Shown here piece after piece: positions 1 to 36,989 of a stretch of DNA of 41,175 nt. The stretch comes from Candidatus Rokuibacteriota bacterium (GTDB lineage: Bacteria > Methylomirabilota > Methylomirabilia > Rokubacteriales > CSP1-6), in NCBI GenBank assembly GCA_003220225.1, contig QHRU01000110.1, forward strand, positions 1-41,175. The letters are read 5' to 3'. The notes under the pieces are model-generated. The model searched no databases and was not told the DNA's origin. It worked only from the letters and a program-made list of their open reading frames with translations. Numbering within the stretch: position 1 is the stretch's first letter; every line of letters begins with the position of its first letter. The translations under genes and the position numbers were made by a program.

Positions 1-2607
1 CTGATCCCGACCATCTGCTTCAACTGCGAGGCGGCGTGCGGCCTCCTCGCGTACGTCGACAAGGACACGCTGAAGATCCAGAAGTTCGAGGGCAACCCGG
101 TGCATCCGGGCAGCCGCGGCCGCAACTGCGCCAAGGGCCCCGCCACCCTCAACCAGGTGCAGGATCCCGAGCGCATCCTCTATCCGATGCGCCGCGCGGG
201 GCCGCGCGGCGGCGGTCGATGGGAGCGCGTGACGTGGGACGACGCGCTCGACGACATCGCGGGACGGATCCGCAAGGCGCTCGTCGAGGGTCGCCAGAAG
301 GAAATCATGTATCACCTCGGCCGCCCCGGGCACGAGCTCGTCTACCTGCAGCGCGTGCTCCACGCGTGGGGGATCGACGGCCACAACAGCCACACCAACG
401 TCTGCTCGTCGAGCGCGCGCGCCGGCTACGCGTTCTGGCACGGCATGGACCGGCCCTCGCCGGATCACGCCAACGCGCGCTTCATCCTGCTGCTCTCCTC
501 GCACCTCGAGACCGGTCACTACTTCAACCCCCACGCGCAGCGGATCATCGAGGCCAAGATGCGCGGCGCGAAAGTCGCCGTCATCGACTCGCGCCTGTCC
601 AACACCGCCTCGATGGCCGACTACTGGCTCTCGCCGTGGCCGGGCACCGAAGCCGCGATCCTGCTGGCGATGGCGCGCATCCTGGTCGCCGAGCGCCGCT
701 ACGACCGTGCGTTCGTCGAGAAGTGGACGAACTGGGAGGAGTACCTGCGCGAGGAGCGGCCCGACCTGCCAGTAACCTTCGACGCGTTCCACACGGCGCT
801 CGAGGAGCTGTACGCGCCGTACACGCCGGAGTTCGCGGCGGAGGAGAGCGGGGTGGCGGCGGCCACGATCGTCGAGATCGCGCGCGCGATCGGGGCCGCG
901 GGCGGAGCGCTGGCCACCCACATCTGGCGCAACGCCGCGGCGGGCAATCTCGGCGGCTGGCAGGTGGCGCGCGCGCTCGAGCTGCTCGTGGTGCTGATGG
1001 GCGCCGTGTCCACGCCGGGGGGAACGGCGCCGAGCGCGTGGCACAAGGCGATCCCCGCGCCGCCCATGATGCCGCCGCCGAGCAAGGTGTGGAGCGAGCT
1101 GCTGATGCCGAGGGAGTATCCGCTGGCGTTCTTCGAGATGTCGTTCCTGCTCCCGCATTTTCTCCGCGAGGGCCGCGGCAAGCTCGCCATGTACTTCACG
1201 CGCGTCTACAACCCCGTGTGGACCAACCCCGACGGGATGTCCTGGATCGAGATGCTGACCGACGAGGCGAAGATCGAGCGCCACGTGTGTCTGTCGCCGG
1301 TGTGGAGCGAGACGGCGTGGTTCGCCGACTACGTGCTGCCGATGGGCCACGCCTCCGAGCGTCACGATCTCATGTCGCAGGAGACTCACGCGGCACGCTG
1401 GATCGGCTTCCGTCAGCCGGTGCTCCGGGTGGCGCTCGAGAAGCGCGGCCAGACGTTCGACCTCACGTGGCAGGCGCACGAGGCGGCTGGGCTTGGTCAA
1501 ATCTGGGAGGAGGACGAGTTCTGGATCGAGCTCTCCTGGCGCATCGATCCGGATGGTTCGCTCGGGATCCGAAAATATTTCGAATCGCCCTATCGCCCCG
1601 GTTCCAAGGTGCGCATCGAGGAGATCTACCGCTGGATCTTCGAGAACAGCGTGCCGGGGCTGCCGGAGGCGGCGAAGAAGGACGGCCTCACGCCGCTCGC
1701 CTACATGCGCAAGTACGGCGCATTCCTCGTCGAGGACAACGTCTACCGCACCTACGAGAGCCCCCAGGACAACGGCGTCGTCGTCGACGGCGTCGCGCGC
1801 GTCGGCTTCCCGACGCCCTCGCGCAAGCTGGAGTTCTTCAGCAAGACGCTCAAGGACTGGAAGTGGCCCGAGCACGCGGTGCCCGGCTACATCCGCAGCC
1901 ACGTCCACTGGTCGCACGTCGACCGCGCGAAGGGCGAGATGGTGCTGCTGCCGACGTTCCGGCTGCCCACGCTGATCCACACACGCTCGGGCAACGCCAA
2001 GTGGCTCTACGAGATCTCGCACACGAACCCGCTCTGGCTGCATCCGGAGGACGCCGCGCGCTTCGGCGTGACGACCGGCGAGCTGCTGAAGATCGCGACG
2101 GCCATCGGCTGGTTCGTCGACAAGGTCTGGGTGACCGAGGCCATCCGCCCCGGCGTCGTCGCGTGCTCGCACCACCTCGGGCGCTGGCGGCTGGCCGAGG
2201 CGGCGGGCGGCGAGCGGTGGTCCACCGCGCTCGTCGATCTCACGCGCGAGGCGCCCGGCAAGTGGCGGATGCGGCAGCTGCACGGCATCGAGCCGTTCGA
2301 GAGCGCCGATCCCGACTCCGCGCGCGTCTGGTGGGAGGACGCCGGCGTGCACCAGAACCTCACGTTCCCGGTCCAGCCGGATCCGATCAGCGGCCAGCAC
2401 TGCTGGCACCAGAAGGTGACCGTGTCGAGGCCCGGCCCCGACGAGCGCTACGGCGACGTCTTCGTGGACACCGACAAGTCGTTCGAGGTCTATCGCGAGT
2501 GGCTGGCGCTGGCGCGGCCGGCGCCGGGCCCGGGCAATCTGCGCCGACCGCTCTGGCTGCCGCGCGCCTTCAAGCCCGACCCGTCCGCGTTCCGGCTGGA
2601 GCCGTAG
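1..2607 (+). CDS. Molybdopterin oxidoreductase, DMSO-reductase superfamily (5' partial)
   Basis: Catalytic subunit of a complex iron-sulfur molybdoenzyme, cut by the window edge; the frame is open from base 1. The first visible residues hold the [4Fe-4S] signature C6-x2-C9-x3-C13-x29-C43, followed by the molybdopterin domains. A Cys at visible residue 135 (motif HTNVCSSSA) lies where this superfamily places its Mo ligand, which would fit the thiosulfate/polysulfide/arsenate reductase-like or PadB-like branches. The substrate cannot be assigned from sequence. The C-terminal third looks like the molydopterin dinucleotide-binding domain. Any twin-arginine signal would lie outside the window. It stops 47 bases before soxY on the same strand, which suggests a role in sulfur oxidation. 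It is not the sulfite-oxidase-type SoxC fold. Confidence 0.88.
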   Translation: MIPTICFNCEAACGLLAYVDKDTLKIQKFEGNPVHPGSRGRNCAKGPATLNQVQDPERILYPMRRAGPRGGGRWERVTWDDALDDIAGRIRKALVEGRQKEIMYHLGRPGHELVYLQRVLHAWGIDGHNSHTNVCSSSARAGYAFWHGMDRPSPDHANARFILLLSSHLETGHYFNPHAQRIIEAKMRGAKVAVIDSRLSNTASMADYWLSPWPGTEAAILLAMARILVAERRYDRAFVEKWTNWEEYLREERPDLPVTFDAFHTALEELYAPYTPEFAAEESGVAAATIVEIARAIGAAGGALATHIWRNAAAGNLGGWQVARALELLVVLMGAVSTPGGTAPSAWHKAIPAPPMMPPPSKVWSELLMPREYPLAFFEMSFLLPHFLREGRGKLAMYFTRVYNPVWTNPDGMSWIEMLTDEAKIERHVCLSPVWSETAWFADYVLPMGHASERHDLMSQETHAARWIGFRQPVLRVALEKRGQTFDLTWQAHEAAGLGQIWEEDEFWIELSWRIDPDGSLGIRKYFESPYRPGSKVRIEEIYRWIFENSVPGLPEAAKKDGLTPLAYMRKYGAFLVEDNVYRTYESPQDNGVVVDGVARVGFPTPSRKLEFFSKTLKDWKWPEHAVPGYIRSHVHWSHVDRAKGEMVLLPTFRLPTLIHTRSGNAKWLYEISHTNPLWLHPEDAARFGVTTGELLKIATAIGWFVDKVWVTEAIRPGVVACSHHLGRWRLAEAAGGERWSTALVDLTREAPGKWRMRQLHGIEPFESADPDSARVWWEDAGVHQNLTFPVQPDPISGQHCWHQKVTVSRPGPDERYGDVFVDTDKSFEVYREWLALARPAPGPGNLRRPLWLPRAFKPDPSAFRLEP

Positions 2608-2654: not shown

Positions 2655-3158
2655 ATGGCAGGAGCAATGACGCGTCGCTCGGCCCTCGGCACCTTCGGCG
2701 CCGTCGGCGCAGCGCTCGCGACGGGGACGCTGAGCATCGGGACGCCGGCCCGGGCTCAGGCCCAGGGACAGTCCCAGGCGCTCGGCCTGCAGGAGTCCGT
2801 GCAAGACGGGCTCAAGCGCGTGTTCGGCGGCCGCCCGATGAAGGACGGCGCCGCGCTGATCAAGCTCGACATCCCGCCCATCGCGGAGAACGGCGCGGTG
2901 GTGCCGGTCAGCGTCGAGGTCAACGCGCCGATGACGCCGGCCTCCCACGTGAAGAGCATCTGGATCGTCGCCGACAAGAACCGCATCCCCATCATCGCGA
3001 AGGCCACGCTCACGCCGGAGGCCGGCCAGGCGTTCGTCGGCGCCAACGTCCGCCTCGGCGAGACGACCGACGTCCGCGCCATCGTCGAGCAGAGCGACGG
3101 GACACTGCTGACGGCGAAGCGCGAGGTGAAGGTCACCGTCGGCGGCTGCGGGGGCTGA
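2655..3158 (+). CDS. soxY: SoxY, sulfur carrier subunit of the thiosulfate-oxidizing complex
   Basis: SoxY carries sulfur intermediates covalently on its C-terminal cysteine in the periplasm while SoxXA, SoxB and others act on them. The 167-residue protein ends in Gly-Gly-Cys-Gly-Gly, the diagnostic swinging-arm motif. Its N-terminus has MTRRSALG followed by a hydrophobic stretch and an Ala-rich cleavage region, a Tat-type signal as usual for SoxY. An AGGAGGG Shine-Dalgarno sequence sits 4-5 bases before the ATG. The soxZ start follows 4 bases after the stop, so the two partners are coupled. The family assignment is firm. Confidence 0.95.
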   Translation: MAGAMTRRSALGTFGAVGAALATGTLSIGTPARAQAQGQSQALGLQESVQDGLKRVFGGRPMKDGAALIKLDIPPIAENGAVVPVSVEVNAPMTPASHVKSIWIVADKNRIPIIAKATLTPEAGQAFVGANVRLGETTDVRAIVEQSDGTLLTAKREVKVTVGGCGG

Positions 3159-3161
3159 GGG

Positions 3162-3494
3162 ATGAGCGACATCGGCAAGATCCGCATCCGCGTGCCGTCC
3201 AACGTGAAGGCCGGCGACGTCGTCCGTGTCCGCTGCCTCGTCATCCATCCGATGGAGATCGTCCAGCGCGACGCGCAGGGCAAGATCATCGATCGCAACT
3301 ACAACTACATCACCCGGGTCACCGCCACCTACCTCGGCAAGCCGGTGGTCGCCTTCGACCTCACGCAGAGCGTGAGCGAGAATCCCGCGTTTTCCTTCGC
3401 GCTCAAGGCGACGGCGCCGGGCCCGGTGAAGGTCACCTTCGTCGACACGCACGGCGGCAAGTACGAGGCCACGGCCGACATCGCGTTCGCCTGA
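3162..3494 (+). CDS. soxZ: SoxZ, partner of SoxY
   Basis: This 110-residue protein has the SoxZ pattern: an Ig-like beta sandwich starting KIRIRVP and ending in the motif VTFVDTHGGKYEA. It has no signal peptide, as expected for SoxZ, which is co-exported with SoxY through the Tat signal of its partner. It forms the SoxYZ heterodimer whose SoxY cysteine is loaded by SoxXA. The gene is immediately downstream of soxY and 7 bases upstream of the SoxXA fusion gene. Confidence 0.95.
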   Translation: MSDIGKIRIRVPSNVKAGDVVRVRCLVIHPMEIVQRDAQGKIIDRNYNYITRVTATYLGKPVVAFDLTQSVSENPAFSFALKATAPGPVKVTFVDTHGGKYEATADIAFA

Positions 3495-3501
3495 GACGCT
3501 C

Positions 3502-4800
3502 GTGCGATCCCTCCCGCGGCTGCGCTGGGCCGCCCTCGCGCTCCTCGTCACCGGATGCGCGCTCGCCGCGCGCGAGTCCACGCCGGTCGCCTCGCCAGGC
3601 CGGACCTCGCGGGCGATCGCCGAGGCGCGCGGCGACGTGCGCGTGAGCCCCGACGGAAAGCGCACGGCCGTCCGATACGCGGGCTGGACGACGCGCGACT
3701 TCGGCGCGTTCCGCAGCTATGCCTACGACGACGTGCGCCCCGAGCCGCCGGTGCAGAAGGCCGTCATGCCCGTGGGCGTCGTGGGCGATCCCAAGAAAGG
3801 CCGCGCGCTGTTCCTCGACCGGCAGAAGGGCCCGTGCAGCGGCTGCCACCTGGTGCCGGGCGACGACGTGTGGCCCGCCGGCAGCGTCGGACCCGATCTC
3901 TCCACGCTCGCCGATCGCACGCTGCCCGACGCGTACCTCTACCAGCAGCTCTGGGATCCGCGCGTGACGTTTCCGGTCACCGTGATGCCGCCGTGGGGCG
4001 CGCAGGGCGTGTTCACGCCGGAGGAGATCGTCCACCTCGTCGCGTATCTGCAGACGCTGCACGGCCCGCCGCCGCCGGAGAAGGACGCCGACCGCAATCC
4101 CTTCACCCGCCGGAAGCCCACCGGCTTCGGCGACAATCTCGACCCGACCAACAACCCCGCCGTCGTCCGGGCCGAGGAGGCGCAAGCGCTCTGGAGCGCG
4201 CGCGGACCAAAGGGCAAGGCGTGCGCCGACTGTCACGCCGGCCTGCCGCAGACGGCGATGCGCGGCGTGGCCACCCGATACCCGCGTGTCGTTGCCGAGT
4301 ACGGCCGCGTGATGAGCCTCGAGGATTTCCTCTCCGTGCACGCGGCGGCGACCACCGGACGCGCGCTGCCGTCCGAGAGTGCCGCGAACCTCGACGTGAC
4401 ACTCCTCGTCAAGATGGCGTCCAACGGCCTGCCCGTGGCCGTGGACACGACGAGTCCGGCCGCGCGCGCCGCGATCGAGCGCGGCCGGGCGTCGTTCTAT
4501 CGGCGCGTGGGCGAGCGCAACCACGCGTGCGCCGACTGTCACACGCCGGATCACGGCGCCAACAAGTTCCTGGGCGGCCGGTTTCTCGGCGACGTCACGG
4601 GGGGCCTCACGCGGCACTCTCCGACGTGGCGCACGAGCCAGAACGACGTCTGGGACATGCGCAAGCGGATGCAGTGGTGCATGACGCCGCTCGGAGCCAA
4701 CATGCTGGCCGCCGACGCCGTGGAGTACGCGGAGCTCGAGCTCTACCTGACGACGTTCGACGTCGGCAAGCCGATCAACGCTCCCGGTATTCGTCATTAA
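3502..4800 (+). CDS. soxXA: SoxX-SoxA fusion, tri-haem c-type cytochrome lipoprotein
   Basis: SoxXA oxidatively couples thiosulfate to the SoxY cysteine. Here both subunits are in one 432-residue chain. The N-terminus (GTG start) is a lipoprotein signal with lipobox LVTGC, Cys at residue 19. A SoxX-like monohaem domain has CSGCH at 112-116 and a distal MPPWG methionine segment. After a Pro-rich linker (about residues 190-205) comes a SoxA-like dihaem domain with CADCH at 241-245 and 343-347. Cys393 in MQWCMTP matches the conserved SoxA active-site haem-ligand cysteine that becomes a persulfide. In most sulfur oxidizers soxX and soxA are separate genes. The gene follows soxZ directly. A frameshift artefact is unlikely because the frame is open throughout. 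No SoxB or SoxCD is visible in the window. Confidence 0.88.
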   Translation: MRSLPRLRWAALALLVTGCALAARESTPVASPGRTSRAIAEARGDVRVSPDGKRTAVRYAGWTTRDFGAFRSYAYDDVRPEPPVQKAVMPVGVVGDPKKGRALFLDRQKGPCSGCHLVPGDDVWPAGSVGPDLSTLADRTLPDAYLYQQLWDPRVTFPVTVMPPWGAQGVFTPEEIVHLVAYLQTLHGPPPPEKDADRNPFTRRKPTGFGDNLDPTNNPAVVRAEEAQALWSARGPKGKACADCHAGLPQTAMRGVATRYPRVVAEYGRVMSLEDFLSVHAAATTGRALPSESAANLDVTLLVKMASNGLPVAVDTTSPAARAAIERGRASFYRRVGERNHACADCHTPDHGANKFLGGRFLGDVTGGLTRHSPTWRTSQNDVWDMRKRMQWCMTPLGANMLAADAVEYAELELYLTTFDVGKPINAPGIRH

Positions 4801-4802
4801 TA

Positions 4803-5045
4803 GTGGGGGCCCCGACATGGCCCCCACACCCCCACACGCTCGTCGCGCCCCGGCGGAGCCGTGGCGCTCCTCGATCACGCGTGCGTCGTAGGGGCCCCGA
4901 CATGGCCCCCACACCCCCAAACGGTTCACCGCAGGCTCGCCTCGGCCGTCGAACGGCCTGCGGCTTCGCACTCCCACGCGCCCCGGCGGAGCCGTGGCGC
5001 TCCTCGATCACGCGTGCGTCGTAGGGGCCCCGACATGGCCCCCAC
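4803..5045. repeat. Intergenic palindromic repeat block with a perfect 68-bp direct repeat
   Basis: The gap after the SoxXA gene contains three palindromes with arms GGGGCC and GGCCCC around the loop CCGACAT, at 4803-4827, 4890-4912 and about 5024-5044. The segments 4845-4912 and 4978-5045 are identical over 68 bases (period 133) and include a second inverted repeat based on GCGCCCCGGC. The hairpins could end sox transcription, although no U-tract follows. Related palindromes recur at 7334-7450 and 26940-27041. Short open frames across the block are repeat-derived and not annotated as genes. Confidence 0.85.
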
Positions 5046-5063
5046 GTAGTACGATTACGCGCG

Positions 5064-5600
5064 ATGCGCTCGAGCCTCACCGCCGCGCTCGCGCTGGTCC
5101 TGCTCGCCGCCGCGCCGGTCGCCGGCGCGCCCCTCGACGATCTCCTCGCGGGGCTGAATCTGATCGCGCTCCACGGTGCCGCGCCGGCCGCGCTCGCCCT
5201 CGAGCGCCTCGCCGACGGCAAGACGGTTGCGCTGCCGCAGCTGCGCGGCCGGCCCGTCATCGTCTACTTCTGGGCCACCTGGTGACCGTATTGCGCGAGG
5301 GAGTTGCCCTCGGCCATCGAGCAGGTCCACCGTGAGTACGGCCCCCGCGGCCTCGTCGTGCTCGCCGTGAACATGGAAGAGTCGCGCGCGACGGTGGGCG
5401 CCTGGGCGCACCGCCACAAGCTCACCATGGACGTACTCCTCGACGTCACCGGCGACGTGAACGGCGCGTGGCACGTCACGCACTCGCCCATGGTCTTTGT
5501 CGTCGGGCGCGACGGCCGGCTGATCGCGCACGCGATCGGCAATCGCGACTGGACGGCGCCCGAAGGCCGCGCGCTGCTCGAGGCGCTCCTGGTGCCGTGA
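5064..5600 (+). CDS. TlpA/SoxW-like periplasmic thioredoxin, candidate selenoprotein (in-frame TGA at the CxxC position)
   Basis: Read through one TGA (5283-5285), the frame encodes a complete 178-residue TlpA-like thiol-disulfide protein: signal peptide (about 1-22), thioredoxin fold, active site WATW-U74-P-Y-C77 and a cis-proline segment HSPMVFVV. The TGA stands exactly where the first active-site Cys of WATWCPYC is expected, and homology continues without a frame change to the natural stop at 5598. The simplest reading is selenocysteine insertion giving a UxxC redox centre, supported by a hairpin just after the codon. The alternative is a TGC-to-TGA nonsense mutation or sequencing error. 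It lies between the sox genes and an SDH/FRD-like operon; its stop overlaps the next GTG start. A role in reducing Sox or cytochrome c thiols (SoxW/SoxS/CcmG-like) is inferred from context. Confidence 0.8.
5283..5314 (+). promoter_or_regulatory. Candidate bacterial SECIS element after the in-frame TGA
   Basis: Directly downstream of the TGA, CGAGGG (5296-5301) pairs perfectly with CCCTCG (5307-5312) around the five-base loop AGTTG. GC at 5293-5294 can extend the stem with GC at 5313-5314, leaving G5295 bulged. The loop starts 16 bases after the TGA and has G as its second base. These features agree with the general bacterial SECIS model: short apical loop with an early G, and a loop about 16-37 bases from the UGA. 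In G+C-rich DNA such hairpins can arise by chance, so this supports but does not prove Sec insertion. Confidence 0.55.
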
Positions 5601-7327
5601 TCGACGCGTTCGAGTGCGACGTCCTCGTCCTCGGCGCGGGCGGCGCCGGCCTCTGCGCCGCCCTGCATGCTGCCGACGCTTCACCCACGCTCTCGATTGC
5701 GGTCGTGGTCAAAGGGCTCTTCGGCCGCGCCGGCTGCACCCGCATGGTGCAAGGCGGCTACAACGCCGTGCTCACGCCCCCCGACTCGCTCGAGGCGCAT
5801 CTGACCGACACGCTCGACGGCGGCGGCTGGATCAACGACCAGGAGCTGGTGTGGCGGCTGGTGACGGAGGCGCCCGGTCGCGTGCTCGAGCTGGAGTCGC
5901 GCTACGGCTGTCTGTTCGACCGCAACGCCGAGGGCCGCATCCACCAGAAGCCGTTCGCCGGCCAGACCCACGACCGCACCGTCCACAAGGGCGACCTCAC
6001 CGGCATCGAGATCATGAATCGCCTCACCGAGCAGGCGCAGGCGCGCCCCTCGATCCGCGCCTTCGAGGAGTGCCGCGCCGTCGAGCTGCTGCGCGACGAC
6101 GCCGGCCGCGCGGCCGGCGCGCTGGCGCTGGACGCGCGCGCGGGCCGTTTTTTCGCGCTCCGCGCGCGGGCGACGCTGCTGGCGATGGGCGGCGGGCCGA
6201 CCATGTACCGCGTGATCGCGTGCTCGGCCGACAAGGCGGCCGACGGCATCGCTCTCGCGTACCGCGCCGGCCTGCCGCTGCGCGACATGGAGATGATCCA
6301 GTTTCATCCCACGGGCCTCGTGATCCCCGGCTCGCTGATGACCGGCGCCCTGCTCGAGGAGGGCCTGCGCGGTGCCGGCGGGCAGTTGCGCAACGGCCTC
6401 GGCGAGCGGTTCATGGCGCGCTACGACGCCGCGCGTATGGAGCGCTCCACGCGCGACCTCGTCTCGCGCGCCTCGTTCCTCGAGGTGAGCCAGGGCCGCG
6501 GCACGCCCAACGGCGGCGTCTGGATCGACGTCTCCCACCTCGGCGCCGAGGTCGTGGAGCGCAACTTCCGCGGCATGGTACGGCGCTGCCGCGACTTCGG
6601 CCGCGACCTCGCGCGCGGGCCGGTGGAGGTCGGGCCCACCGCGCACTTCATGATGGGCGGTGTCGTCGTCGATCCCGACTGCCGCACGGCGATCGAGGGC
6701 CTCTTCGCCGCCGGCGAGGACACGGGCGGTGTGCACGGCGCCAACCGCCTGGGCGGCAACGGCGTCGCCGAGTCGACCGTGTTCGGCGGCATCGCCGGCG
6801 ACGTGATGGCGGCCTTCGTCGCGGGCCGCCCGATGCCGCGCGTGAGCGAGGCGGCGCTCGAGGCCGCGGCCGCGCGCTGCGCGGCGCCGCTCGGCCGTGG
6901 AGGCGGCGCGGAGGTCTACGCGATCCAGCGGGAGCTGCGCGACGTCATGTGGGAGCGCGCGGGGCTCGTGCGCGATGCCGAGGGCCTCGGCGTGGCCGCG
7001 GCCACGCTCGAGCGCCTGACCGAGCGCCTCGGCGTGGTGGGCGTGCCGGGCCACGGGCCGTTGAACACCGCGTGGCAGGACTGGCTCAACCTCGACAGCC
7101 AGCTGACGGCGGCGCGACTGATCGTGGCGAGCGCGCTCGCCCGCCGCGAGAGCCGCGGCGCGCACTGGCGGCGGGACTTCCCGGTGCCGGCGGCGACGCC
7201 GCCGGTGTGCGTGCGCGTGCAGGGGCGCGACGGCGCACCGCTCGTCTGGGCGGAGCCCGTGGCCATGACGCGCGCACGGCCGCCGGCCGGAGCGCGGCGT
7301 CCGGTGGCCGTCGAGATCGGGGACTGA
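5597..7327 (+). CDS. FrdA/SdhA-like flavoprotein lacking the flavinylation histidine
   Basis: A 576-residue FAD-dependent succinate dehydrogenase/fumarate reductase-type flavoprotein. The start is a GTG overlapping the thioredoxin stop. It has the dinucleotide motif GAGGAG (13-18), the substrate and catalytic motifs FHPTG, EEGLRGAGG, TAHFMMGG and ANRLGGNG, and the C-terminal RRESRGAH segment. At the position of the histidine that binds FAD covalently in SdhA/FrdA it has Cys47 (GCTRMVQGG), so the FAD may be non-covalent. The usual DRTGH-type segment is changed to KGDLTGIEI. It diverges clearly from the second flavoprotein at 21718. Partner subunits are probably at 9920 (anchor) and 11488 (iron-sulfur). 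Whether it oxidizes succinate, reduces fumarate or handles another dicarboxylate cannot be told. Confidence 0.88.
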   Translation: MIDAFECDVLVLGAGGAGLCAALHAADASPTLSIAVVVKGLFGRAGCTRMVQGGYNAVLTPPDSLEAHLTDTLDGGGWINDQELVWRLVTEAPGRVLELESRYGCLFDRNAEGRIHQKPFAGQTHDRTVHKGDLTGIEIMNRLTEQAQARPSIRAFEECRAVELLRDDAGRAAGALALDARAGRFFALRARATLLAMGGGPTMYRVIACSADKAADGIALAYRAGLPLRDMEMIQFHPTGLVIPGSLMTGALLEEGLRGAGGQLRNGLGERFMARYDAARMERSTRDLVSRASFLEVSQGRGTPNGGVWIDVSHLGAEVVERNFRGMVRRCRDFGRDLARGPVEVGPTAHFMMGGVVVDPDCRTAIEGLFAAGEDTGGVHGANRLGGNGVAESTVFGGIAGDVMAAFVAGRPMPRVSEAALEAAAARCAAPLGRGGGAEVYAIQRELRDVMWERAGLVRDAEGLGVAAATLERLTERLGVVGVPGHGPLNTAWQDWLNLDSQLTAARLIVASALARRESRGAHWRRDFPVPAATPPVCVRVQGRDGAPLVWAEPVAMTRARPPAGARRPVAVEIGD

Positions 7328-11122: not shown

Positions 11123-11488
11123 ATGAAGCCCAGAACGCTCGCGCTGGCGCTGCTGCTGTGTCTCGCCGCGAGCGGCGGTGCGGCGCTGGCCCAGACCCCC
11201 GGCGACGCCGACCGGTTCTTCGGCCTGGAATGGACGGGGGGCGAGCGCCGCGGCCGGTCCAACGTCAACGGCTACGTCGTGAACAACTATCGCGTGCGCG
11301 CCGCGAACATGCGGCTGCTCGTCGAGAGCCTCGACGCGAGCGGCAAGGCGATCGACACGACGTCGGGCTTTGTCGCCGACGTGCCTGCGGGCGGACGCGT
11401 GTACTTCGAGACGCCCGTCAAGCGGAAGGCGGCGCGCTACCGCGTCACCATCACGGGCTGGGACTGGCGGGACGGCGGCGGCCAGTAG
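11123..11488 (+). CDS. Exported FxLYD-like protein
   Basis: A 121-residue protein with a clear Sec signal peptide (MKPRTLALALLLCLAA, cleavage after ALAQ near residue 24) and one small beta-sandwich domain. The pattern GYVVNNYRVRAANMRLLVESLD followed by VADVPAGGRVYFETPV resembles FxLYD-type domains, which describe how proteins gain or vary exported decoration; the molecular role is unknown. The start is supported by GGGGAGGGA directly before the ATG. Its TAG stop overlaps the GTG start of the iron-sulfur subunit, so it is translationally coupled to an SDH/FRD-like operon. Confidence 0.65.
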   Translation: MKPRTLALALLLCLAASGGAALAQTPGDADRFFGLEWTGGERRGRSNVNGYVVNNYRVRAANMRLLVESLDASGKAIDTTSGFVADVPAGGRVYFETPVKRKAARYRVTITGWDWRDGGGQ

Positions 11489-12216
11489 TGGTCCGGCTGA
11501 ACGTCTTCCGCTGGGCTCCGGGCGAGGCCGAGCGCATCCGCGCTTACGAGGTGGAGGCGGTCGCCGACACCACCGTGCTGGACGCGCTCGTCGCCGTCCA
11601 GCGCGAGCAGGATCCCACCCTGGCCCTTCGCTACGCCTGCCGCGTCGGGATGTGCGGCTCCTGCGCGATGGTCGTCAACGGCCGCGAGCGCTGGGCGTGC
11701 CGCACGCGGCTCGCGTCGCTCGGCCCCGGGCCCGTGAGCGTCCGCCCGCTCTACCACTTCCCGCTGCTGCGCGACCTCGTGGTGGACATGACGCCGTTCG
11801 TCGAGCGGCACGCGGCCGTCGGCGCCGCGCTCGCGCCGGCGGCGCAGGCCGAGCCCTACGTCGTGATCCCGTCGGCCTCCGCCGAGCGCGCCGAGATCGA
11901 CGACGCCATCGAGTGCATCGGCTGCGGCATGTGCCTGTCGGCCTGCACGATGGTGGCGCACGACCGGCGCTTTCCGGGGCCGGCCGCGCTCAACCGCGCC
12001 TTCACGCTGCAGCGCGACCGGCGCGATGCCGCTCACGGCGCGCGCTGGGCGATGCTGCTCGGTGACGACGCGCTGCCGCGCTGCCACGGCCAGGGCAACT
12101 GCACGGACGTCTGCCCGATGGGGCTTTCGCCGACGCGCTCCATCATCCGCCTGCGCCAGATGGCGGTGCGGCGCATGGTCGGCCTCGCGGCCCCCCAGGC
12201 AGGGCGGGGTCAATGA
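11488..12216 (+). CDS. SdhB/FrdB-like iron-sulfur subunit
   Basis: A 242-residue iron-sulfur protein, GTG start overlapping the upstream stop. The N-terminal plant-ferredoxin-type [2Fe-2S] site is CRVGMCGSC followed after 11 residues by another Cys. The C-terminal part has CIGCGMCLSAC and CHGQGNCTDVCPMG for the [4Fe-4S] and [3Fe-4S]/[4Fe-4S] clusters. It should carry electrons from a flavoprotein to the membrane quinone. The likely partners are the divergent flavoprotein at 5597 and the anchor at 9920 rather than the main SDH at 20911-24278, which has its own iron-sulfur subunit. Confidence 0.9.
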   Translation: MVRLNVFRWAPGEAERIRAYEVEAVADTTVLDALVAVQREQDPTLALRYACRVGMCGSCAMVVNGRERWACRTRLASLGPGPVSVRPLYHFPLLRDLVVDMTPFVERHAAVGAALAPAAQAEPYVVIPSASAERAEIDDAIECIGCGMCLSACTMVAHDRRFPGPAALNRAFTLQRDRRDAAHGARWAMLLGDDALPRCHGQGNCTDVCPMGLSPTRSIIRLRQMAVRRMVGLAAPQAGRGQ

Positions 12217-12281
12217 GGAGGGCGAAGGTCTGGGTGGACGAGGCGCCGGCCGGCGAGTACGCGTTCAGCCTGGCGCGTTGA
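12213..12281 (+). CDS. Very short ORF coupled to the iron-sulfur gene
   Basis: A 22-codon frame (starting MRRAKVWVDEAPAG) whose ATG overlaps the stop of the iron-sulfur gene by ATGA. Its end overlaps the convergent LysR gene. I recognise no family. It could be a truncated gene remnant or a small coupled peptide; there is no evidence of function beyond the overlap. Confidence 0.2.
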   Translation: MRRAKVWVDEAPAGEYAFSLAR

Positions 12282-13209
12282 GCGGCGGCGTCGACGGCGC
12301 GAGCCGCGCGAACTCCTTGCCCGGATACGAGCGCCGCGTGTAGGCGAACAGCTCATCGACGAACGCCTGCGCGTAGGACGGCAGGTGCCGGCGGGGATCC
12401 CACACCGCGGCCGTCGAGCCGCCGATGGCGCGGCCGGCCCGCAAGAGCGGCGCGACGCGGAGCCCGCTCCGGCTGAAGATCGTCGTCGACGGCACGACGG
12501 CGATGCCATGGCCGCCGCGCGCCAGGCTCACCAGCGAGTGCGGGTCGTTGGCCTCCAGCAGCACGCGCGGCCGGGCCCGCGCGGCCTCGCAGGCGGCGTC
12601 GAAGCGAAGGCGCGAGGCGAAGTCGCGCCGCAGCAGCAGGACCGTCTCGTTGTCCAGCTCGCCCACCTCGAAGGCGCGCCGGCGGGCCAGCCGATGCCCG
12701 GGCGGCATCACCGCGAGCACCCACACGGGGAAGAGCGGCCGCGCGCGCAGATCGTCGCCGGTCGGCACCGCGCCCAGCGCCAGGTGCAGCTCGCCGCGCG
12801 CGACGCGCGCGCGCAGCCGCACGCCGCCGTCCTCGACCAGCCGTACGTCGATGCCCGGCCACGCCCGGCGGAAGCCGGTGAGGAACGCGCTGATCAGGCT
12901 CTCGAGCGTCTGCGCGGTGGCGCCCAGGCGCAGCGTGCCCGTGCGCCCGCCGGCCAGCGCGCCGGCGCGCTCGCGCAGCGCGTCCGCGGAGCGCAAGATC
13001 TCGCGCGTGCGCTCCAGGAGATTTTCGCCCTCGGCGGTGAGGTGCAGGCGCCGGCCGACGCGGTCGAAGAGCGGCAGGCCCAGCTCGCCCTCGAGATCCC
13101 GGAGCTGGCGCGACAGCGCGGGCTGGGTGATGTTGAGCTGGACGGCGGCCCGCGAGACGTTGCCCGCGTCGGCCACGGTGACGAAGTAGCGCAGGTGACG
13201 CAGCTCCAT
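12265..13209 (-). CDS. LysR-type transcriptional regulator
   Basis: A 314-residue LTTR. The winged helix-turn-helix is at residues 1-60 (ELRHLRYFVTVADAGNVSRA, then ITQPALSRQLRDLE) and a periplasmic-binding-like effector domain covers about 90-300. The ATG at 13209 gives the family-typical N-terminus MELRHLRYF. It is divergent from the methyltransferase gene and about 960 bases before aconitase, so an organic-acid effector and autoregulation at the shared spacer are plausible but inferred. It converges on the SDH/FRD-like iron-sulfur gene. Confidence 0.9.
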   Translation of the reverse strand: MELRHLRYFVTVADAGNVSRAAVQLNITQPALSRQLRDLEGELGLPLFDRVGRRLHLTAEGENLLERTREILRSADALRERAGALAGGRTGTLRLGATAQTLESLISAFLTGFRRAWPGIDVRLVEDGGVRLRARVARGELHLALGAVPTGDDLRARPLFPVWVLAVMPPGHRLARRRAFEVGELDNETVLLLRRDFASRLRFDAACEAARARPRVLLEANDPHSLVSLARGGHGIAVVPSTTIFSRSGLRVAPLLRAGRAIGGSTAAVWDPRRHLPSYAQAFVDELFAYTRRSYPGKEFARLAPSTPPLNAPG

Positions 13210-13230
13210 GCCTTTTGAGTATAAGCGACC

Positions 13231-13242
13231 CATAGAACTATG
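13231..13242. promoter_or_regulatory. Inverted repeat in the LysR/methyltransferase spacer
   Basis: CATAG-AA-CTATG is a perfect 12-base inverted repeat 21 bases upstream of the LysR start, in the divergent spacer and in an AT-richer stretch (GAGTATAAGC nearby). It is the right place and symmetry for a LysR-type operator. It also overlaps the upstream ATG (13240) of the methyltransferase frame, which favours the internal GTG start for that gene. Confidence 0.4.
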
Positions 13243-13281
13243 CATTGGATGTTGGGTGCGGGCGGGCGTACTCATGGGGGC

Positions 13282-14058
13282 GTGACGCAGGCGGCCGCGT
13301 GGGACCCCGCGCAGTACCTCCGGTGGAGCGACCACCGGCTGCGGCCCGCCGTGGACCTCCTCCAGCGCGTCCCGCTCGCGAGCCCGGCGCGCGTGGTGGA
13401 CCTCGGCTGCGGCACCGGCAACGTGACGGCGCTGCTGCGCGGGCGCTGGCCCGGCGCCCGCGTGACCGGTGTCGACGCGTCGGCGACGATGCTGGAGCGC
13501 GCGCGCGCCTCCGATCCCGGGGTCGACTGGCGGCAGGCCGACGTGGCCGCCTGGGCGCCGCCGGCGCCGGTGGACGTGCTCTTCGCCAACGCCACGCTCC
13601 ACTGGATCGACGACCACGCGGCGCTGTTTCCGCGGCTGGTCACGCTGGTGGCCGGCGACGGCGCGCTGGCCGTTCAGATGCCCCGCAACTTCGGCGAGCC
13701 CTCGCATACCTCGATCTACGAGGTGGCGCGCGAGGGGCGGTGGCGCGACCGACTCGAAACGCTCATCCGGCCGGAGCCGACGAAGCCGCCCGAGTACTAC
13801 TGGGACCTCCTGGCCCCCCGCGTAAGCGCGCTCGAGGTCTGGGAGACCGTCTACACGCAGGCGCTCACGGGCGACAACCCCGTCGCCGACTTCGTGAAGG
13901 GCTCGTGGCTCAAGCCGTTCCTCGACGCCCTCGACGGCGCCGAGCGCCCGGCCTTCGAGAGCGCGTATCGATCGCGCGTGGCGCGCGCGTATCCGCCGCG
14001 CGCGGACGGGACGACGCTGTTTCCGTTCCGCCGGCTGTTCATCGTGGCGCGATGCTGA
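13282..14058 (+). CDS. tam: Trans-aconitate 2-methyltransferase (Tam-like)
   Basis: An S-adenosylmethionine-dependent class I methyltransferase of 258 residues. It has WDPAQYLRW at the N-terminus, the SAM motif VVDLGCGTGN, an acidic ribose-binding residue in VTGVDASATML, the substrate segment NATLHWIDDH and AVQMPRNFGEPSH, all typical of Tam. Tam methylates trans-aconitate, a spontaneous by-product of citrate/cis-aconitate that inhibits aconitase. The aconitase gene starts 110 bases downstream, so the context fits a repair role. The GTG at 13282 is chosen because it aligns with known Tam starts. An ATG at 13240 would add 14 residues without a Shine-Dalgarno sequence. Confidence 0.88.
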   Translation: MTQAAAWDPAQYLRWSDHRLRPAVDLLQRVPLASPARVVDLGCGTGNVTALLRGRWPGARVTGVDASATMLERARASDPGVDWRQADVAAWAPPAPVDVLFANATLHWIDDHAALFPRLVTLVAGDGALAVQMPRNFGEPSHTSIYEVAREGRWRDRLETLIRPEPTKPPEYYWDLLAPRVSALEVWETVYTQALTGDNPVADFVKGSWLKPFLDALDGAERPAFESAYRSRVARAYPPRADGTTLFPFRRLFIVARC

Positions 14059-14069
14059 GCGCCGTCGCC

Positions 14070-14098
14070 TTGACCGCTTCGGCGCGGGGCGTTAGAGT
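14070..14098 (+). promoter_or_regulatory. Candidate sigma-70-type promoter for the TCA operon
   Basis: TTGACC (14070-14075) and TAGAGT (14093-14098) are separated by exactly 17 bases and lie just after the methyltransferase stop and about 70 bases upstream of the aconitase ATG. A leader hairpin (CGCCTCCC, 14115-14122, with GGGAGGCG, 14133-14140) follows before the AGGAGG Shine-Dalgarno sequence. A position upstream of the first TCA gene makes it a good candidate start of the long operon. Confidence 0.5.
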
Positions 14099-14168
14099 TG
14101 TCCGTCATTTACGCCGCCTCCCTCCCGCGTGGGGGAGGCGCTCGTTTGCTCGCGAATAGGAGGCTCCG

Positions 14169-16504
14169 ATGTCTGCGCAGATCAGATCGCTCTATGCCTC
14201 CATGCCCGACCGCCTCGCGCGCGCCCGCAAGCTGTTCGGCCGGCCCCTCACGCTCAGCGAAAAGATCCTCGTCGCGCACTGCCACGACTTCGAGACGCAG
14301 GAGTGGCAGCGCGGCAAGGCGATCCTCCGCCTGCGCGTGGACCGCGTGGCGCTGCAGGATGTGACGGGCCAGATGGCGATCTTCCAGTTCATGATGTCCG
14401 GCCGCAAGCGGGTGGCGGTGCCGTCGACGATCCACTGCGACCACCTCATCCGCGCGGAGAGCGGCGCCGCCGCGGACCTCAATCGCGCCGTCAGTGAGAG
14501 CGCGGAGGTCTACAACTTCATCCGCTCCGCGGCGCGCAAGTACGGCCTCGGCTTCTGGCGTCCGGGCTCCGGCATCATCCACCAGGTCGTGCTGGAGAAC
14601 TACGCGACGCCGGGGACGCTCATGATCGCCGCCGACTCGCACACGCCGAACGCGGGCGGGCTCGGCATGCTGGCCATCGGCGTCGGCGGCGCGGACTGCG
14701 GCGAGGCGATGGCGGGGCTGCCGTGGGAGGTGCTCCATCCCAAGCTGATCGGCGTCCACCTCACGGGCAAGCTCTCCGGCTGGACGGCGCCCAAGGACGT
14801 CATCACCTACCTCTGCACATTGCTCACCGTGAAGGGCGGCACCAACAAGATCCTCGAGTACTTCGGTCCCGGCGCGGAGTCGATCAGCGCCACCGGCAAG
14901 GCGACCATCTGCAACATGGGCGCCGAGCTCGGCGCCACCACCTCGATCTTCCCGTTCGACCCGCGCATGGCCGCGTACCTGCGCGCCACCGACCGCGCCG
15001 ATCTCGCCGCGCTCGCCGAGGAGTTCCGCGAACACCTCGTGGCCGACCCGGAGACCGTGGACAGTCCGGCGGCGTTCTACGACGAGCTGGTCGAGATCAA
15101 CCTCGACACACTGGAGCCGCACGTCGTCGGCCCGCACTCGCCCGACCGCGGCCGGCCCATCGGCAAGCTCGGTGGTGAGGCGCGCCAGAACGCGTGGCCG
15201 GCGCAGATCACCAACGCGCTCATCGGCTCCTGCACGAACTCGTCGTACGAGGACATGCGCCGGGCCGCCCACGTCGCGATGCAGGGGCTCAAGGCGGGCC
15301 TCAAGGCGAAGGCGAAGTTCCTCGTCACGCCGGGCTCCGATCGGATCTACCAGACGATCAAGCGCGACGGCCTCATCGAGACCTTCGAGAAGATCGGCGG
15401 CACCGTGCTCGCCAACGCGTGCGGGCCGTGCATCGGCCAGTGGAAGCGCACGGACGTCGGCCCCGACCAGAAGAACACGATCGTCTCGTCCTTCAACCGT
15501 AACTTCCCCGGCCGTAACGACGGCTCGCAGGAGACGCTCTCGTTCATCACGAGCCCGGACGTCGTCACCGCGCTCGCCTTCGCGGGCACCCTCGAGTTCA
15601 ACCCGCTGACCGACACGCTGACGGCGCCGAACGGCGAGCGGGTGCGCTTCACGCCGCCCGAGGGCGAGGAGCTGCCGCGGCAGGGCTTCGCGGGCGGCGC
15701 GGAGGGCTACGAGGAGCCGGCGGCCGACCCCGACTCCGTGAAGATCGAGATCCCCGCGAACAGCGAGCGGCTCCAGGTGCTCGGCCCGTTCGTGGCGTGG
15801 GACGGCAAGGACTTCATCGACCTGCCGATCCTCGTCAAGACCAAGGGCAAGACGACCACGGACCACATCTCGCCGGCGGGCCCGTGGCTGCGCTTCCGCG
15901 GCCATCTCGACAAGATCAGCGACAACATGTTCCTCGGCGCCACCAACGCCTTCACCGGCGAGACGGGCAAGGGCGTCAACCCGCTCACCGGCGCCACCAG
16001 CCAGCCGTTCTCGAAGATCGCCCGCGAGCTCAAGGCGGCCGGCGTGCAGTGGATCGTCGTCGGCGACGAGAACTACGGCGAGGGGTCGAGCCGCGAGCAC
16101 GCGGCGATGTCGCCGCGCTACCTCGGCTGCGCGGCCGTCCTCGTGCGTTCCTTCGCCCGCATCCACGAGACCAATCTCAAGAAGCAGGGCGTGCTGCCGC
16201 TGACCTTCGCCGACCCGGCCGACTACGACAAGTTCGAGCAGGGCGACCGCGTGTCGATCACCGGTCTCTACACCCTCGAGCCGGGCAAGCCGGTCACCGT
16301 GCAGATCAGGAAGCCCGATGGCCGGGTGGTCACCATCCAGGCCCGGCACAGCATGACGCGAGAGCAGATCGCCTGGTTCCGCGCGGGCTCCGCGCTGAAC
16401 GCCGGCCAGGTCATCGATCCGAAGACCGGGGCGCCGGCGAAACTGGAAGCCGTGCATCTCGAGCCCGGCGACACCAAGGCGAAGCCCGGAAGAAAGGACG
16501 TCTG

Positions 16505-16505
<1 letters not shown>
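14169..16505 (+). CDS. acn: Aconitate hydratase (mitochondrial/AcnA-like)
   Basis: A 778-residue cytosolic [4Fe-4S] enzyme converting citrate to isocitrate through cis-aconitate. Cluster cysteines are visible at C355 ([12 protein letters not shown]), C418 and C421 ([11 protein letters not shown]). The substrate-binding SRNFPGRN-type motif appears as [10 protein letters not shown], and the swivelling C-terminal domain has [15 protein letters not shown]. The length and [13 protein letters not shown] segment match the mitochondrial-type aconitase. The start has AGGAGG 6 bases upstream. The stop overlaps the isocitrate dehydrogenase ATG (TGATG), so the two consecutive TCA steps are coupled. Confidence 0.96.
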
Positions 16506-17767
<1,262 letters not shown>

Positions 17768-17783
17768 CCTATAAGGAGAGAGA

Positions 17784-18716
17784 ATGGGGGCGCGTCCCAA
17801 GATCACGGTGGTCGGCGCCGGAAACGTCGGCGCCACCGTCGCCCAGTACGCGGTGGAAAAAGAGCTCGGCGACGTCGTGCTGGTGGACGTCATCGAGGGC
17901 GTGCCGCAGGGCAAGGCGCTCGACCTCGCCCAGGCCGGCTCCATCCACCGCTACGACTCGACGCTCGTCGGCAGCAACGGGTACGACGAGACGGCGGGCT
18001 CCGACGTCGTCGTCATCACGGCCGGCCTCGCGCGCAAGCCCGGCATGACGCGCGACGACCTGCTGTTCAAGAACGCCGAGATCGTCGGCTCCGTGGTCAA
18101 CGAGATCGTGACGCGCAGCCGGGCCGCCATCCTCGTGCTGGTCACCAACCCGCTCGACGCCATGGTGCAGCTCGCCTGGAAGAAGTCGGGCTTCCCGACC
18201 CAGCGCGTGTTCGGCATGGCCGGCGTGCTGGACTCCGCGCGCTTCCGCACCTTCATCGCGCGCGAGCTGAACGTGTCCGTGGAGAACGTCACGGCGTTCG
18301 TGCTGGGCGGCCACGGCGACACCATGGTGCCGCTCCCGCGCTACTCCACGGTGGCCGGCATCCCGATCACGGAGCTCCTGCCGAAGGCCAAGATCGACGA
18401 GCTGGTGCAGCGCACGGCCAACGGCGGCGCCGAGATCGTGGCCCTGCTCAAGACGGGCAGCGCCTATTACGCGCCGGCGGCCTCCGCCGTCGAGATGGTC
18501 GAGGCGATCCTGAAGGACAAGAAGAAGATCCTGCCGTGCGCGGCCTACCTGGACGGCCAGTATGGCGTGCAGGGGCTCTACGTCGGCGTGCCCGTCAAGC
18601 TCGGGCGCGGCGGCGTCGAACAGGTCATCGAGATCAAGCTCACGCCCGAGGAGCAGGCGGCGTTCGACAAGTCGGTCGGCGCCGTGCGCGAGCTGGTCGA
18701 CAAGCTCAAGCTCTAA
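17784..18716 (+). CDS. mdh: Malate dehydrogenase (LDH-like)
   Basis: A 310-residue NAD-dependent enzyme of the LDH-like MDH type, oxidizing malate to oxaloacetate. It has the Rossmann motif [12 protein letters not shown], an Asp at the end of strand 2 (LVDVIEG) for NAD preference, the TNPLDAM segment, [12 protein letters not shown] with the substrate-binding Arg, and the catalytic His177 in [10 protein letters not shown]. An AAGGAGAGAG Shine-Dalgarno sequence precedes the ATG, 16 bases after the isocitrate dehydrogenase gene. Confidence 0.96.
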
Positions 18717-18727
18717 CGGAGGTGACC

Positions 18728-19267
18728 ATGGCCGCAAAGAAGGCCAAGGCGCGCCGGCCGGCGCGGGCCAAGCGGCCGGCCGCCACGCGCGTTCGACCGG
18801 TGCCGGCCGGCTACCACACCGTCACCCCGTATCTCACCGTCGACGACGGCGCGCGCGCGATCGAGTTCTACGCGCGCGCGTTCGGCGCGCGCGAGAAAGA
18901 GCGCATGCCGGGGCCCGGCGGCAAGATCATGCACGCCGAGCTGCGCGTCGGCGACTCCGTCGTGATGCTGAGCGACGAGTTTCCGGGCATGAGCACCGCG
19001 CGCTCGCCCAAGGCGCTCGGCGGCACCACGGGCGGGCTCTTCCTCTACCTGCCCGACGTGGACGCCGCGTTCAAGCGCGCGGTGGAGGCCGGCTGCAAGG
19101 TTCTCATGCCGCTCACCGACATGTTCTGGGGCGACCGCTTCGGCAAGCTCGAGGACCCGTTCGGCAACCAGTGGAGCCTCGCCACCCACAAGGAAGACGT
19201 GTCGCCACGCGAGCAGGCCGAGCGCGCGAAATCGGCGATGGCGAAGCTGAGCCCGGGCGGCGCCTGA
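18728..19267 (+). CDS. VOC-superfamily (glyoxalase/PhnB-like) protein
   Basis: A 179-residue protein: a basic Lys/Arg/Ala-rich N-terminal tail (about 1-28), then a vicinal-oxygen-chelate domain of the PhnB/YdcE-like type starting TVTPYLTVDDGARAIEFY and ending DPFGNQWSLATH. Such proteins include glyoxalases, dioxygenases and resistance proteins, so the substrate is unknown. It overlaps the fumarase alpha start (TGATG) and lies within the TCA operon, perhaps dealing with a reactive metabolite. The basic tail could be a disordered extension. Confidence 0.82.
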   Translation: MAAKKAKARRPARAKRPAATRVRPVPAGYHTVTPYLTVDDGARAIEFYARAFGAREKERMPGPGGKIMHAELRVGDSVVMLSDEFPGMSTARSPKALGGTTGGLFLYLPDVDAAFKRAVEAGCKVLMPLTDMFWGDRFGKLEDPFGNQWSLATHKEDVSPREQAERAKSAMAKLSPGGA

Positions 19268-20109
19268 TGCGCGAGATCCACGTCTCGGCCATCACGGACG
19301 CCGTCAAGAAGCTCTGCATGGAGGCGAACTGGAGCCTCGAGCCCGACATGCTGCGCGCCTTCGACCGTGCGCTCGGCACCGAGCGCTCGGCCGCCGGCAA
19401 GCAGGTGCTGACGATCTTGAAGCAGAACGCCGAGATGGCCCGCACGCGACAGATCCCGTACTGCCAGGACACGGGGATGGTGATCTGCTTCGTCGAGCTG
19501 GGGCAGGACGTGCACGTCACGGGCGGCGGCCTGTACGACGCCATCAACGAGGGCGTGAGCCAGGGCTACCGGGAAGGCTATCTGCGCGCCTCGATCGTGC
19601 GCTCGCCGTTCGACCGCGTGAACACCGGCGACAACACGCCGGCGGTGATCCACGTGGACGTCGTGCCCGGCGCGACCGTGAGGATCATGGTGATGGCCAA
19701 GGGCGGCGGCTGCGAGAACCGCTCGAAGTACACGATGCTGACGCCGGCGGCGGGACTGCCGGGCGTGAAGGACTTCGTGATCGAGTGCGTGAAGAACGCC
19801 GGCCCGGACGCCTGCCCGCCGCTCATCCTCGGCGTGGGCGTCGGCGGCACGTTCGAGAAGTCCGCGATCCTGTCCAAGAAGGCGCTCTTCCGCGAGCTCG
19901 GCTCGCCGAATCCGGATCCGACCCTGGACGCGCTGGAGCAGGAGCTGCTCGCGCGCGCCAACCGGCTGGGCATCGGGCCGCAGGGCTACGGCGGCGACAC
20001 CACGTCCTTCGGCATCCACATCCTCACCTACCCCTGTCACATCACCTCCCTCCCCGTCGCCGTCACCATCGAATGCCACGCCCACCGCCACAAGGAAGTG
20101 ACGCTGTGA
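19267..20109 (+). CDS. Class I fumarase, alpha subunit
   Basis: The 280-residue [4Fe-4S]-binding subunit of the two-subunit fumarase/tartrate dehydratase family, converting fumarate to malate. The three expected cluster cysteines are visible: C66 (YCQDTGMV), C149 (GGGCENRS) and C183 (DACPPLILG). It ends CHAHRHKEVTL. The final 38 bases of this coding region (20068-20105) recur exactly at 20214-20251, next to the beta-subunit start, showing that the gene junction was duplicated. Confidence 0.93.
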   Translation: MREIHVSAITDAVKKLCMEANWSLEPDMLRAFDRALGTERSAAGKQVLTILKQNAEMARTRQIPYCQDTGMVICFVELGQDVHVTGGGLYDAINEGVSQGYREGYLRASIVRSPFDRVNTGDNTPAVIHVDVVPGATVRIMVMAKGGGCENRSKYTMLTPAAGLPGVKDFVIECVKNAGPDACPPLILGVGVGGTFEKSAILSKKALFRELGSPNPDPTLDALEQELLARANRLGIGPQGYGGDTTSFGIHILTYPCHITSLPVAVTIECHAHRHKEVTL

Positions 20110-20251
20110 GGACGGCGGCGCTGCGCGATCTCCCCCTCCGTCCGAGCGCCGGCGTTGCCGGCGCCATCGAAGGGGGGAGGTTCGGAAGGGGGGCGCAGCC
20201 CCCCTCCGAGGAAATCGAATGCCACGCCCACCGCCACAAGGAAGTGACGCT
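20068..20251 (+). repeat. Duplicated fumarase alpha/beta junction (38-bp direct repeat, period 146)
   Basis: Bases 20068-20105, the last codons of the alpha subunit, are repeated perfectly at 20214-20251. The second copy carries the AAGGAAG (20238-20244) that serves as the beta-subunit ribosome-binding site, 7 bases before the ATG at 20252. In the second copy the old stop would overlap this ATG as CTATGA, which looks like the original coupled junction. The DNA between the copies contains a 74-base palindromic element. Confidence 0.85.
20143..20216. repeat. Palindromic element, copy A (intergenic)
   Basis: A 74-base element starting CGAGCGCCGGC and ending GAGGAAATC. It holds a GCCGGC-based inverted repeat and a strong hairpin (GGGGGG-CGCA-GCCCCCC). 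It matches 20267-20341 with few differences, including one base fewer. It sits between the alpha stop and the duplicated junction. Confidence 0.8.
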
Positions 20252-20914
20252 ATGAGCGATCGCGATCGAGCGCCGGCTTCGCCGGTGCCATCGAAGGGGG
20301 GAGGTTTCGGAAGAGGGGCGCAGCCCCCCTCCGAGGAAATCAAAGACGTGCGGACGCCGTTCTCCGACGCGGACGTGGAGTCGCTGAAGGCGGGCGATCG
20401 CGTCCGCATCTCGGGCGTCATCTATACGGCGCGCGACGCGGCCCATGCGCGCCTGCTTCCCCTGATCGAGAAGGGCGAGGCGCTGCCGATCGACGTCACG
20501 GGCCAGATCATCTATTACACCGGTCCGTCGCCGGCCCGGCCGGGCACCGTGATCGGCTCCGTCGGGCCGACGACCGCCAGCCGCATGGACAAGTTCACGC
20601 CGTCGCTCTTGAAGCTCGGACTCAAGGGCACGATCGGCAAGGGCTACCGCGGTCAGCCGGTGAAGGACGCGCTGAAGCAGTACAAGGCGATCTACTTCGG
20701 CGCGATCGGCGGCGCCGGCGCCGTGCTCTCCGAGTTCGTGAGGAAGGCGGAGGTCGTGGCCTACGAGGACCTCGGCACGGAGGCGATCCGCCGGCTCGAG
20801 GTGGACGCCTTCCCGGCCATCGTGCTCTACGACTGCCACGGCGGCGATCTCTACCAGGACGGGCAGAAGGTCTACGCGAGGGAGGACCCATACCCTCAGG
20901 GAGGGCACAAGTGA
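20252..20914 (+). CDS. Class I fumarase, beta subunit, with repeat-encoded N-terminal extension
   Basis: A 220-residue beta subunit completing the fumarase. The conserved domain begins near VRTPFSDADVESLKAGDRV (about residue 32) and contains YTARDAAHARL, GPTTASRMDKF and AIVLYDCHGGDLY. The ATG at 20252 is chosen for AAGGAAG 7 bases upstream; an in-frame ATG at 20219 lacks one. Residues 6-30 (RAPASPVPSKGGG through PSEEI) are encoded by palindromic element copy B, an extension absent from ordinary fumarase beta subunits. The stop overlaps the GTG of the SDH anchor (GTGA). Confidence 0.92.
   Translation: MSDRDRAPASPVPSKGGGFGRGAQPPSEEIKDVRTPFSDADVESLKAGDRVRISGVIYTARDAAHARLLPLIEKGEALPIDVTGQIIYYTGPSPARPGTVIGSVGPTTASRMDKFTPSLLKLGLKGTIGKGYRGQPVKDALKQYKAIYFGAIGGAGAVLSEFVRKAEVVAYEDLGTEAIRRLEVDAFPAIVLYDCHGGDLYQDGQKVYAREDPYPQGGHK
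20267..20341 (+). repeat. Palindromic element, copy B (inside fumarase beta)
   Basis: A 75-base copy of the element seen at 20143-20216. It has one extra T (GGTTTCGG versus GGTTCGG), which makes its length a multiple of three, and it has no stop in the beta-subunit frame. It contributes 25 residues rich in Gly, Pro, Ser and Arg to the N-terminus of the enzyme. Confidence 0.82.
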
Positions 20915-24278: not shown

Positions 24279-24282
24279 CGGC

Positions 24283-26324: not shown

Positions 26325-26523
26325 GCCGGACGGGACGCATGGCCGGACGCGGGCTCATGGTGGCCGGGGCGATCGTGACCGCCGTGGGCGTGGGAATCGT
26401 CCTGGTGCATACCATCGGGCTGCCACGATACTGGATGACGTTGATCATCGGCGTCGGGCTGCTCGTCGCGGGAGCGATCACGTGGGCCACGTCACGGAAC
26501 GGCGCGAGGTGATCGGCGCATGA
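26309..26523 (+). repeat. Direct repeat of the sucD/ndk junction (16 bp, period 199)
   Basis: GGTGATCGGCGCATGA occurs at 26309-26324 (sucD end, start of the small gene) and at 26508-26523 (end of the small gene, ndk start). Each copy carries a Shine-Dalgarno-like GGTGA, a stop and an ATG in a coupled arrangement. The pattern suggests that sucD was once directly coupled to ndk and the 199-base unit was inserted or duplicated between them. Confidence 0.75.
26321..26512 (+). CDS. Small two-helix membrane protein between sucD and ndk
   Basis: A 63-residue protein with a short basic N-terminus ([11 protein letters not shown]) and two hydrophobic helices (about 12-31 and 37-56) joined by a turn with PRYW. 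I recognise no family. Its ATG overlaps the sucD stop (ATGA), and its stop lies 8 bases before the ndk ATG, so it would be translated at operon levels. Normal third-position G+C use supports real coding. Confidence 0.6.
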
Positions 26524-36986: not shown

Positions 36987-36989
36987 GCC

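Follow-up and report, generated by a model that had tools for sequence, protein, structure and literature searches.

A predicted selenocysteine-containing TlpA/ResA-type oxidoreductase encoded beside sox genes in Rokubacteria

The open reading frame (ORF) at 5064-5600 on the + strand of the window, the 41,175-nt stretch of DNA analyzed here, is almost certainly a genuine selenoprotein gene. With scarcely less confidence, its predicted product can be described as a selenoprotein of the TlpA/ResA-type family. The source, a soil bacterium, belongs to the Rokubacteria, which are members of the Methylomirabilota (GTDB). The gene, referred to here as tlpA, opens with ATG at 5064, runs to a TGA at 5283-5285 (codon 74) and then stays open until the TGA at 5598-5600. 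A first-pass annotation of this DNA had claimed that the frame is broken only by the codon-74 TGA, and the translation agrees: this TGA, located within WATW-U-PYC, is the sole interruption. It had also claimed that automatic annotation would split the gene and miss the active site. Under the standard code, tlpA is indeed reduced to a 73-aa stub and a TTG-started fragment of 98 aa (5304-5600). The gene and its surroundings comprise the following features.

2655..3158, + strand: soxY, thiosulfate oxidation carrier with a GGCGG C-terminus (TIGR04488, 145.6 bits; translation)
3162..3494, + strand: soxZ (TIGR04490, 80.1 bits)
3502..4800, + strand: fused soxX-soxA c-type cytochrome (TIGR04485 and TIGR04484 above cut-off in one ORF)
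4803..5056, + strand: repeat-bearing spacer between soxXA and tlpA, the soxB slot in most relatives
5064..5600, + strand: tlpA, predicted selenocysteine (Sec)-containing TlpA/ResA-type thiol-disulfide oxidoreductase (178 aa, stop codon counted; translation and homologues)
5064..5129, + strand: probable N-terminal signal peptide of TlpA, MRSSLTAALALVLLAAAPVAGA (judged by eye from the translation)
5283..5285, + strand: predicted Sec codon UGA, residue 74, at the first cysteine position of the CxxC active site (translation and homologue alignment)
5296..5312, + strand: predicted bacterial SECIS hairpin CGAGGG-AGTTG-CCCTCG, starting 10 nt past the UGA (invariance, covariation, loss in a Cys homologue, bSECIS limits)
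5597..7327, + strand: fumarate reductase/succinate dehydrogenase-type flavoprotein, whose GTG start overlaps the tlpA stop (GTGA)

With Cys placed at codon 74, TlpA matches PF00578 over residues 49-154 (78.2 bits, cut-off 26, E-value 6.7e-22) and PF08534 (67 bits, cut-off 26.6), and both models of the TlpA/ResA-type domain (AhpC-TSA/Redoxin clan) therefore score above their curated cut-offs. The PF00578 match spans both sides of the TGA, as expected from the earlier observation that homology continues past it in the same frame. By PDB sequence match, the closest solved structures are several of ResA and the thioredoxin-family entries 3hdc and 3kcm. Together with the domain matches they fix the fold of TlpA, which is considered settled. 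The NCBIfam equivalogs for ResA, TlpA, StoA and DsbE all remained below cut-off (77.3 against 170, 45.3 against 230, 63.3 against 210 and 38.4 against 123 bits, respectively), and no SoxW model was present among the NCBIfam matches of TlpA. The designation as a UxxC oxidoreductase of TlpA type, already proposed in the first pass, is upheld. Judged by its sequence, the product is a TlpA/ResA-type UxxC oxidoreductase, a kind of selenoprotein that is already known.

Described selenoproteins of this kind include the Prx-like thiol:disulfide oxidoreductases (PF00578, UxxC) and the thiol-disulfide isomerase-like proteins (cd02966, UxxC) (PMC13188914). TlpA shares their domain, the UxxC motif and the active-site position but, compared by description only, differs from them in its location within a sox cluster. 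With the WAxxUGC ResA-like selenoproteins (NF041054) it shares the ResA-like fold and an active-site Sec; however, at 41.9 bits the match is weak, far below the 300 bits of the cut-off, and TlpA has U-P-Y-C in place of U-G-C. A W-U-G-C motif does occur in the same genome, in a separate gene (L140).

Homologues were searched in 148 genomes, and 30 loci, window gene included, were taken as best matches. Inspection of codon 74 in relatives had been recommended, and TGA was found in 28 of these 30 best loci (exactly one TGA each), whereas the other two have a Cys codon. The two Cys homologues are L160 of genome G055, in which a sox cluster is present, and L167 of genome G004, which is without true SoxY or SoxB. 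The former (also designated L032) is nested in the Sec clade as sister to L044 and L045 (support 100/98).

The hairpin downstream of the UGA, an element absent from the first-pass annotation, is invariant among the Sec orthologues and is marked by its codon choice. In all 28 Sec orthologues it is covered by the codons AGG, GAG, TTG or TTA, CCC and TCG, whereas in nine neighbouring genes of the window AGG makes up 1.0% of Arg codons, and TTG and TTA 1.2% and 0% of Leu codons. As these codons are nearly absent from the neighbouring genes, it is the RNA that is constrained here, not the protein. The Cys homologue L032 serves as a control: its stretch reads TGT CCC TAC TGC GCG CGG GAG CTG CCC TCG, with common Arg and Leu codons, one broken stem pair and a loop changed from GT to GC. 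Its SECIS hairpin has thus been lost together with Sec.

Covariation points the same way. At the matching position, a paralogue group around G000:C113:97388 carries hairpins in register with that of tlpA, such as GGAAGG-AGTTG-CCTTCC and GGGAGG-AGTTG-CCTCCC, and when its hairpins are pooled with those of tlpA (56 sequences), 336 of 336 cells are paired. In these 56 sequences, two-sided changes occur in three of the six stem pairs, with 63 such cells versus 25.8 in shuffles, and the covariation score is 0.457 versus 0.213 when shuffled and at most 0.221 when slid; since much of the change separates two clades, the shuffle numbers overstate the count of independent events. One stem pair varies inside the paralogue group as well (A-U, G-U, G-C). 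The bSECIS limits (PMC13188914) require a loop of 3-9 nt, a stem of 4-16 bp, a G within the first two loop positions, a UGA-to-loop distance of 16-37 nt and an energy of ≤ -7.5 kcal/mol. The tlpA hairpin lies within all of them (loop of 5, stem of 6, AGU loop, 16 nt), with -17.5 kcal/mol for the 48-nt stretch that holds it. Taken alone, this energy is unremarkable (z -1.7) and is weak evidence; the argument draws on the choice of codons, on covariation and on the control given by the Cys homologue. A scan of the window for a perfect 6-bp stem at 8-12 nt spacing from a TGA, with GT in a 3-7 nt loop, gave a hit after one of 394 TGAs on the + strand, that of tlpA, and after one of 484 on the - strand. 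An Rfam scan of the window returned no match.

The assembly to which the window belongs, as contig C65, comprises 6.03 Mb in 167 contigs and is 97% complete; all four genes of the Sec machinery that the first pass had advised looking for are found in it. The selA and selB genes are adjacent (TIGR00474, 585 bits, and TIGR00475, 373 bits, both above cut-off), tRNA-Sec (selC, anticodon UCA, 69.7 bits) lies ~1.3 kb from selA, and selD (335 bits) has an in-frame TGA of its own in the motif CAG-U. The UGA at codon 74 would be decoded by this tRNA-Sec (UCA) and SelB, guided by the hairpin 10 nt downstream.

The first-pass annotation had further tied the oxidoreductase to sulfur oxidation. This association is supported, more strongly than the first pass was aware, by the gene order: soxY, soxZ and soxXA lie upstream of tlpA in the window, and in 16 of the 20 stretches from relatives soxB lies upstream on the same strand (tblastn; in L151 as a contig-end fragment only). 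In relatives with soxB, soxXA, soxZ and soxY follow further out wherever the contig reaches. In the window and in AR40 the soxB slot is a short repeat-bearing spacer, and in AR29 it holds other ORFs; AR40 and AR29 are the nearest named genomes (Candidatus Rokuibacteriota). The spacer at 4803-5056, like that of AR40, contains 69-nt and 36-nt repeats that include GGGGCCCCGACATGGCCCCCAC. The true soxB of the source genome is located on contig C159 (120975-122657, 838 bits), and the ORFs scanned around it include no further sox gene. A molybdopterin oxidoreductase related to PhsA/DmsA (window 100-2607) directly precedes soxY and recurs in relatives. Downstream, window positions 11158-26933 hold a long run of TCA-cycle genes, comprising succinate dehydrogenase/fumarate reductase subunits, aconitase, malate dehydrogenase, fumarase, succinyl-CoA ligase and nucleoside diphosphate kinase.

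As for the first-pass label SoxW-like, which is tentative, tlpA shows the linkage to sox genes that is looked for in a SoxW. A soxV (CcdA-like) gene is absent beside it; two DsbD/CcdA-type genes, on contigs C159 and C110, are not adjacent to tlpA but are possible electron donors. In three of the 20 stretches (L152, L162 and L167), a molybdopterin oxidoreductase lies directly upstream of the tlpA homologue and sox genes are lacking. A strict coupling of Sec and Sox, considered across the few genomes examined, is refuted by two of them: G055 combines a sox cluster with the Cys homologue, and in G003 (89% complete), where the Sec gene is present, neither SoxB nor SoxY gave a true match. G004 (100% complete), with the Cys form and without true SoxB and SoxY, is the one case that fits the coupling. 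On genomic context, the relation of tlpA to Sox can be called strong, but not strict.

In the mechanism we propose, TlpA would be exported to the periplasm and act there as a Sec-x-x-Cys reductase. It would receive electrons from a CcdA/DsbD-type membrane protein and reduce thiols of the Sox machinery, foremost wrong disulfides on the cysteine of the SoxY GGCGG motif. The nearest precedent is provided by SoxS/SoxW of alphaproteobacterial sox clusters, where a thioredoxin-fold protein is likewise encoded with soxYZ; these periplasmic proteins are described without Sec, by which TlpA is set apart from their descriptions. Wrong disulfides on SoxYZ are reduced by SoxS (PMC10451225), and by analogy the SoxY cysteine is the likely client of TlpA. 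We consider the chance that TlpA is a Sox-connected reductase to be about even, most of the remainder falling to a different client in the periplasm, e.g. apocytochrome c. The fuller proposal, in which a Sox-dedicated Sec-TlpA keeps the SoxYZ carrier cysteine reduced across a family of Rokubacteria and their sulfur oxidation is partly selenium-dependent, falls just short of an even chance.

The same selenoprotein could instead serve mainly apocytochrome c, in the manner of ResA/CcmG (e.g. for SoxXA), or general periplasmic disulfides, and not SoxYZ. The best named models (ResA, StoA, TlpA and DsbE) and the ResA structures agree with such a client, as does the nearby c-type cytochrome gene soxXA, and no sox gene separates the molybdopterin oxidoreductase from the Sec gene downstream of it in L152 and L162. 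Yet the scores for these four models are all under cut-off, and as far as neighbours were searched for, those that recur are soxY, soxZ and soxB, not cytochrome-maturation genes. We regard this client assignment as a serious contender of somewhat less than even probability.

No literature joining selenoproteins, soxB and thiosulfate oxidation was found in a search that covered subscription journals thinly. The protein type is known, whereas the fixed place of a Sec thioredoxin in a sulfur-oxidation gene cluster seems to be undescribed. Standard annotation cuts tlpA in two with loss of the active site, presumably likewise in the 27 related genomes, and because of this split the gene would be missed when Rokubacterial sulfur metabolism is reconstructed. 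Should the Sox role prove true, thiosulfate oxidation in this soil group would be influenced by the supply of selenium. The Sec and Cys forms in close relatives offer a direct test of the benefit of Sec in a periplasmic disulfide reductase.

Two other readings of the TGA at 5283-5285 were weighed against a Sec codon. It could be a nonsense mutation in a pseudogene or a sequencing or assembly error for TGC/TGT, and the genome is indeed an assembly of 167 contigs. However, with a TGA at codon 74 in 27 other genomes, a sequencing error is very unlikely, and synonymous sites within the hairpin are under constraint. The frame decay after the TGA that the first pass had proposed to check for is not seen either. 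The dN/dS of tlpA is 0.32 after the TGA and 0.17 and 0.29 before it (two congeneric genomes), which indicates that selection on the TlpA protein persists downstream (dN/dS ~0.3); this reading retains a negligible probability. Equally negligible is genome-wide reassignment of TGA (e.g. to Trp) or readthrough without SECIS, for which the open frame speaks and nothing more, since TGA terminates tlpA itself and other genes of the window, the genome holds a complete sel gene set, and the 10 of its 21 PF00578 matches with one in-frame TGA each have it in a redox-active motif.

The ten TGA-bearing PF00578 loci are L128, L129, L131, L133, L135, L136, L138, L140, L141 and L144, and several of them have plausible SECIS hairpins. 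The source genome is, as predicted from such genes, rich in selenoproteins. In its large selenoproteome it resembles a Methylomirabilota genome for which 63 selenoprotein genes have been predicted, as far as that genome is described where it is cited in PMC13188914. Within the window, a screen of same-frame ORF pairs gave a candidate for a second Sec gene at 35994-38861, which proved to be two unrelated genes. Elsewhere, L201:7389-7907 encodes a putative Sec-TlpA paralogue with the motif WATW-U-PDC. Its neighbours suggest no client; it has its own covarying SECIS, and its TGA is kept across most of the family.
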